From Nitrososphaeria archaeon (GTDB lineage: Archaea > Thermoproteota > Nitrososphaeria > JACIWG01), in contig JARVJP010000009.1 in the NCBI GenBank assembly GCA_029776065.1, forward strand, positions 516,514-580,513: a stretch of DNA of 64,000 bases, read 5' to 3'. Positions within the stretch are counted from its first letter, which is position 1; each line of letters opens with the position of its first letter. This document shows positions 58,136-59,707 of the stretch, one piece after another. The notes below the pieces were generated by a model. The model ran no database searches and had not been told where the DNA came from. It worked only from the letters and a program-made list of their open reading frames with translations. The position numbers and the translations under genes are program-made.

Positions 58136-58432
58136 TTAGACAAGATCTTCGTCGCCGATCTTTTTTATGTATTTGTTCTTTAACTTAATATTCAACTTGT
58201 AGTCGTTAGGTGTTGTGTTTTCGACAGTAATCCTCCTTATTGTGAGACCACACTTGTTACCTGCGATAAGTTTTCCTCTTAAGCATGTCACATAAGCACA
58301 ACTTTGAGGGGTACATGGCTCGTTTACGAAACTACACCAAGGTCTTCCTTCCCGAAAAACTAGTGTTCTTCGACCACATCGGAAAAACTCGCATCTGGCT
58401 GTGCACAGTTTGGCCGTGGAATTTTCTTCCAT
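58136..58432 (-). CDS. Cysteine-rich small protein of unknown function
   Basis: This 98-residue protein has eight cysteines in its first 62 residues (CTARCEFFRC, RPWCSF, EPCTPQSCAYVTC and NKCG), then a basic, cysteine-free tail. The spacing suggests one or two zinc or iron-sulphur sites. I do not recognise the family. It starts at ATG 58432, 62 bases after the endonuclease gene on the same strand, so it may be the last gene of that operon. Confidence 0.6.
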   Translation of the reverse strand: MEENSTAKLCTARCEFFRCGRRTLVFREGRPWCSFVNEPCTPQSCAYVTCLRGKLIAGNKCGLTIRRITVENTTPNDYKLNIKLKNKYIKKIGDEDLV

Positions 58433-58494: not shown

Positions 58495-58854
58495 TTACGC
58501 TTTCCACCATTCAAAAGCCAAGTACTTTGGAGGTTTCTCCTTTTCCACTATAGCTATTATGAACTTTTTTCTAACGGTTGTAGCCAGCCTGCCAGAAAGA
58601 ACAACATAGGTTGCAGAAAGCTTATCCTTATATTCAACCACTTGAACTAAGTAGGGTGCGTGGTCTATTCCAGGTCCGCGTTCATACACTGCGAAATCGC
58701 AACCGAATTTGATTCCAGGCAGGACTACGTGCCCCTTGTCTCTTAAGTTTTTGTAGACGATATACTTTGAATCGAAGTCCTTATAGTCTCTTTGGCAGAT
58801 CTTGAACAACTGGTTAAAGGATATTTCTGCACCATCTGTGTTTAACACTCTCAA
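58495..58854 (-). CDS. endA: tRNA splicing endonuclease, catalytic C-terminal part
   Basis: This 119-residue reading frame is the catalytic domain of the archaeal tRNA-intron endonuclease. The three active-site residues are visible: Y57 in AVYERG, H65 in GIDHAPYLV and K96 in VRKKFII. It begins with TTG at 58854, but no ribosome binding site precedes it. Nine bases upstream lies a TGA (58864-58866). Before it, in the same frame, is the N-terminal domain (next entry). Read as one, the frame has about 180 codons, and the catalytic residues fall at 118, 126 and 157, close to the published numbers for M. jannaschii (115, 125, 156). So this gene looks split or interrupted rather than short by nature. 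Confidence 0.85.
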   Translation of the reverse strand: MRVLNTDGAEISFNQLFKICQRDYKDFDSKYIVYKNLRDKGHVVLPGIKFGCDFAVYERGPGIDHAPYLVQVVEYKDKLSATYVVLSGRLATTVRKKFIIAIVEKEKPPKYLAFEWWKA

Positions 58855-58863
58855 TAGTTTTTT

Positions 58864-59037
58864 TCAACTAGATACAATGGCTTCTATAACGTCTAGAACC
58901 AGTGGTGCAGAAAACTCTGAAGTCTTCGGTTTATGTATACCCATTGGTTTGCCAAAAAAACCAATTTTATAAAGGTGTTGGGCTTCTTCTATATTCCATA
59001 CCATTATCCTGTTACCTAGCAGTTTTCCTGTGTACAT
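58864..59037 (-). CDS. endA: tRNA splicing endonuclease, N-terminal domain, ending at an in-frame TGA
   Basis: This 57-residue reading frame from ATG 59037 matches the N-terminal domain of archaeal EndA: YTGKLLGNRIMVWNIEEAQ, LYKIGFFGKP and LVLDVIEAI. It stops at TGA, 58864-58866, and the frame continues with KKLL into the catalytic domain without any shift. Comparison with the A. fulgidus sequence, as I remember it, puts the stop inside the domain linker with no gap on either side. Two polypeptides that assemble, readthrough, a recent mutation or a sequencing error are all possible. It starts 17 bases after the DUF47 gene. Confidence 0.75.
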   Translation of the reverse strand: MYTGKLLGNRIMVWNIEEAQHLYKIGFFGKPMGIHKPKTSEFSAPLVLDVIEAIVSS

Positions 59038-59053
59038 TTTATCTACTTTTAAT

Positions 59054-59707
59054 CTATATCCCTAAAGCTAATATGGTGGCTGCGTCTGTAGCTCTTAAGC
59101 ATTCATCTGATATATTCTCAATTCTATCTATAATGTCTAGGGCAAGAAGTACCCCAACCTTGTTCGGCATGGTTGGCGGTAATTTCATACTTAGTGTTCT
59201 GTATTTGGTGTCGATCTCTTTTTCTAAGTTTTCGACTTCTAATGCTAGGTCAGGTACTCTTTGCGGGTTGATTGTTAACATCCTTACTACTTCACTCATC
59301 TTTTGTGAGCAGTCTATTACCATTAGAATTAATTCCTCAAGTTCTTTTTCGATGTTCAATTTCTTGAATATTTTTGGATCCATCTGACCAAACCTGAATG
59401 TTACAGCGTAAACGTAATCAACAACCTCTTCAATTGAGTACGCCGATCTGAGAACGTCTTCTCTGTTCATTATAATGCTTCCCATACTCATAAGCTCTTT
59501 TATTAGGCTCCTCCTATACCTTTCAACTTCATCCTCGACTCGTTTTGCTTCCTCTATGTGCTTTGTCACTCCATCTTTATTGTTGTTTAAAAGTTCGTTG
59601 TACGCGTTTAATAGGATTCTAACCCCTTCGACGACCTTTCTAGACTCGTCTGTTAGCAGCGATAATGTCTTCCGCTTGGCTCTGAGCTCAGATTCTCCTT
59701 CGTACAT
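59054..59707 (-). CDS. DUF47 (PhoU-like) family protein
   Basis: This 217-residue all-helical protein belongs to the DUF47/PhoU-like family (TIGR00153 type). It has a KHIEEAKRVEDEVERYRRSL helix with charged metal-binding residues, and the repeat-like LALDIIDRIENISDECLRATD near the end. Relatives are often encoded next to a Pit phosphate transporter and are thought to regulate it. No transporter is adjacent here. It lies between hexulose-6-phosphate synthase and the endonuclease. ATG at 59707. Confidence 0.8.
   Translation of the reverse strand: MYEGESELRAKRKTLSLLTDESRKVVEGVRILLNAYNELLNNNKDGVTKHIEEAKRVEDEVERYRRSLIKELMSMGSIIMNREDVLRSAYSIEEVVDYVYAVTFRFGQMDPKIFKKLNIEKELEELILMVIDCSQKMSEVVRMLTINPQRVPDLALEVENLEKEIDTKYRTLSMKLPPTMPNKVGVLLALDIIDRIENISDECLRATDAATILALGI

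Follow-up and report, generated by a model that had tools for sequence, protein, structure and literature searches.

Does the tRNA splicing endonuclease gene (endA) of a Nitrososphaeria archaeon, which carries one in-frame TGA, encode a split or recoded enzyme, or does the TGA mark a local lesion in an ordinary gene? The gene lies in a window of 64,000 nucleotides, the whole stretch of DNA that was analysed (contig JARVJP010000009.1, positions 516,514 to 580,513 of the forward strand). On the minus strand of the window, a frame begins at ATG 59037, meets TGA at 58864–58866 and is open in the same frame to the stop at 58495, exactly as an initial reading of the bare sequence (the sequence-only reading) had described. 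That reading offered three accounts of the TGA: a two-piece endonuclease split at a domain boundary, UGA readthrough, and a mutation or read error. The third is the one favoured by the evidence.

Translated with X for the stop, the frame matches the N-terminal domain PF02778 at residues 3–78 and the catalytic domain PF01974 at residues 88–168, both over cut-off. The catalytic triad of Y118, H126 and K157 is present, in agreement with the sequence-only reading. The TGA is codon 58. It had been placed at the junction of the N- and C-terminal domains, but it falls well inside PF02778, and PF01974 begins only at residue 88. The features of the gene are as follows.

58495–59037, minus strand: whole endA alpha subunit gene (N-terminal domain, lesion, catalytic domain, stop), 64–68% identical over the whole length to intact same-family orthologues.
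58882–59037, minus strand: N-terminal part, codons 1–52 (ATG to GAA), read in the family frame, with the conserved columns held to E52 except for one substitution at residue 50.
58878–58881, minus strand: net gain of one base (GCCA), placed by codon comparison with relatives; the exact base is not fixable.
58857–58877, minus strand: segment with the family-like reading LYLVEKN in the +1 frame, identified by profile score.
58864–58866, minus strand: nominal TGA, an out-of-frame overlap of the conserved GTT-GAA (V-E) codons.
58856–58865, minus strand: net loss of one base, within the A7 run and the bases immediately following; the nominal frame is family-like again from LLRV on.
58495–58854, minus strand: C-terminal part, which is read in the family frame and keeps its catalytic domain intact; the conserved columns from 81 to 180 are all held (PF01974, 1.6e-29).

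A PhoU-like DUF47 gene (PF01865) is located directly upstream of endA (59054–59707, minus strand), and a similar-looking frame precedes endA in a distant relative (L246), so the neighbourhood may be conserved. Directly downstream is a 98-residue cysteine-rich open frame with no Pfam match (58136–58432, minus strand).

The origin of the TGA emerges from comparison with four genomes of the same family (L003–L006). Their EndA proteins share 64–68% identity with the present one and have the same length and the same triad, but are unbroken in all four cases. At the site of the lesion, codon comparison shows that the four genomes read E-G-L-Y-L-V-E-(K/R)-(N/K/R)-(L/F)-L in a single unbroken frame, whereas the nominal frame here reads E-A-I-V-S-S-stop-K-K-L-L. 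The residues AIVSS ahead of the TGA are foreign to the EndA family. The +1 frame of the same DNA reads LYLVEKN, as in the relatives. Scored against a profile of 80 relatives, LYLVEKN reaches 17.1 bits, compared with −13.2 bits for the nominal frame and a mean of 16.6 bits for the relatives themselves. It ranks top among the 127,960 seven-codon stretches in the six frames of the whole window, none of the others attaining 17.1 bits.

Because the family reading LYLVEKN stands in the +1 frame, one base has been gained at 58878–58881 and one lost at 58856–58865. The comparison thus shows a pair of cancelling one-base indels, about 15–25 bases apart, that bracket family sequence at approximately codons 53–60. 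The TGA is a by-product of the displaced frame rather than a stop within a frame that is otherwise normal. The exact inserted and deleted bases are not fixable from one sequence, and the loss may fall within the A7 run or immediately downstream. Neither indel is clearly restricted to a homopolymer, and the run at the site of the loss has seven A also in two of the four near relatives. The sequence-only reading had the frame continuing unshifted past the TGA. The same nominal frame does resume, but the family sequence around the TGA lies in the +1 frame between the two indels.

This displacement bears directly on whether endA is read as it stands, by UGA readthrough or by a ribosomal +1 shift followed by a −1 shift, to yield one full-length protein. 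Such recoding would agree with the resumption of the nominal frame past the TGA, and the +1-frame A-AAA-AAC fits the general archaeal −1 slippery pattern X-XXY-YYZ (PMC8211752). An interrupted archaeal gene whose frame changes close to an A-rich run is also known, the fucA gene of Sulfolobus (Saccharolobus) solfataricus, which involves a −1 programmed frameshift (PMC8211752). However, fucA uses one −1 shift, whereas endA would need both a +1 and a −1 shift, with two separate signals, and no relative shares the arrangement. The Y and the L of the segment that readthrough would replace with AIVSSx are each shared by at least 95% of relatives. TGA serves as an ordinary stop, as the sequence-only reading had noted, and ends 88 of the 347 open frames longer than 300 codons on the contig. 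A search for tRNA-Sec and SelB, which that reading had suggested, found neither over curated cut-offs in the genome (about 95% complete), which argues against a selenoprotein or UGA recoding. With the residues before the TGA out of frame, the readthrough proposed earlier is not supported, and recoding of either kind is highly unlikely.

A true two-piece alpha subunit would consist of residues 1–57 and a restart piece from TTG 58854, assembling with each other and with a beta subunit. The TTG is nine bases past the TGA and both pieces are otherwise conserved; as a restart site it is possible but unsupported. The break, however, cuts the N-terminal domain (3–78) instead of separating the two domains, and the first piece ends in out-of-frame sequence. 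Nor is the arrangement conserved. Alignment with EndA of relatives, another check suggested at the outset, finds 80 of the 80 orthologues compared unbroken, and none of the 61 nearest genomes besides this one contains a short alpha frame. The proposed split at a domain boundary is therefore not supported, and a two-piece enzyme of any kind is extremely improbable. Overall, it is very doubtful that alpha is really translated from the interrupted gene in this lineage alone, be it by recoding or by restart and two-piece assembly. A wider search, covering 400 genomes of the class, returned, among the matches listed, two other short alpha frames, both with trivial causes. An ambiguous or masked base in one (G346) and a contig start in the other (G227) make the frames look short, and they were rejected as precedents.

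The gene is otherwise well preserved. Among 80 relatives, 57 columns show at least 95% conservation, and the gene holds 54 of these. It departs from them at residue 50, as does the nearest relative (L003), and at residues 55 and 56, which fall within the displaced segment. As two of the three departures are confined to the shifted part, the gene is not decaying; outside that part, endA alpha displays no sign of decay.

A second complete endA beside a decaying copy, a possibility raised by the sequence-only reading, is not what the genome contains. The assembly searched comprises 16 contigs and is about 95% complete. Its only other EndA, at C3:101602–102069, is unbroken but has lost the catalytic His, and is thus the structural beta subunit and not a second catalytic enzyme. 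The catalytic His is replaced in all seven readable beta sequences, that of this genome included, and most of the 60 nearest genomes of the class also possess the pair of alpha and beta genes. Thaumarchaeota are reported to have EndA of the alpha2-beta2 type, with alpha and beta paralogues in one genome (PMC4090602); in this type alpha is catalytic and beta is structural (PMC12397907). The beta subunit therefore neither replaces endA alpha nor shows it to be redundant. In the beta EndA of two same-family genomes (G002 and G003; L229 and L230), Asn takes the place of the triad Lys, which the beta of this genome keeps.

An active alpha subunit should be needed in this organism. According to ARAGORN, four tRNA genes of this contig (Trp, Met and two Ser) contain introns, and the tRNA-Trp at C3:256072–256206 (L191) is called with a 59-base intron. 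Because these introns are called in a genome whose only other EndA is without the catalytic His, an active alpha would be expected. In Haloferax, repression or knockdown of endA impairs growth and the maturation of tRNA and rRNA (PMC7714728).

The quality of the assembly was assessed by a frame scan of contig C3 (775 kb), a single contig that makes up 45% of the genome. A total of 152 stretches (139 kb) with matches to relatives' proteins were scanned for stops and frame changes, and no other comparable break was found. The sole other flag is a stop close to the C-terminus of a methyltransferase (contig 572312–573172), where the protein of a relative extends past the end; it was set aside as a length difference. 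As a control, single-base deletions were planted in 149 stretches, and the scan flagged 109 of them, a sensitivity of about 73%; for short cancelling indel pairs without a stop the sensitivity would be lower than for single deletions. The scanned stretches contain 11 A7 and 21 T7 runs without other breaks. The scan and its control do not support a generally noisy assembly. A run of 10 N at C3:171288–171297 (L187) may be a scaffold gap. Indel errors in metagenome-assembled genomes were sought in the literature by a strict combined query, which found nothing.

Since the contig is clean elsewhere, it is unlikely that two random errors arose independently within about 25 bases. The proximity of the two indels suggests one local cause: a weak consensus spot, mixed strains or one complex mutation. 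The clean contig also weighs against a technical cause, in that it points to a single cause, either a local problem or a real complex event. The indel pair, or one complex mutation, could accordingly be real and very recent, in all or part of the sequenced population. Alpha would then be truncated or altered, and the cells would survive through coexisting intact alleles or through slight readthrough, slippage or restart. The clean background and the closeness of the two changes are consistent with such a mutation, and the absence of other decay fits a recent event. Yet the enzyme should be needed, given the introns called in four tRNA genes and the harm done by endA knockdown in Haloferax (PMC7714728), and the TGA lies between the two indels, so that the second fails to rescue the first. 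A recent mutation is thus rather unlikely, though it deserves to be taken seriously. A technical cause, namely a local consensus or assembly error, is probable instead, since the rest of the gene is undamaged and its product should be required.

The best explanation, which we hold with some confidence, is that endA at 58495–59037 encodes an ordinary catalytic alpha subunit of the heterotetrameric (alpha-beta)2 archaeal tRNA splicing endonuclease, with a local cancelling indel pair. The pair would stem from a local error of consensus or assembly, the genome being clean elsewhere. The true gene of the organism would yield a normal full-length alpha subunit, and this would pair with the intact beta to cut introns from pre-tRNAs. 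The pairing of alpha and beta is inferred by analogy with known (alpha-beta)2 enzymes. An alpha subunit of this type has an unbroken reading frame; here the nominal frame contains a stop, which comes from the displaced frame. A full-length same-family orthologue matches alpha subunits of the crenarchaeal (alpha-beta)2 type (PDB 3p1z, 3ajv, 2zyz and 2cv8) over almost its whole length (3p1z, 7e-44). The likeness extends to the same triad and to alpha and beta paralogues in one genome. The only difference is the cancelling indel pair in this one assembly.

A split or recoded essential enzyme would, if true, add a new endonuclease architecture. The lesion in endA is not such an architecture. It carries a caution instead: an "in-frame" stop between two good blocks of homology can be what two mutually cancelling indels leave behind, and these are revealed only by checking the other frames against relatives.
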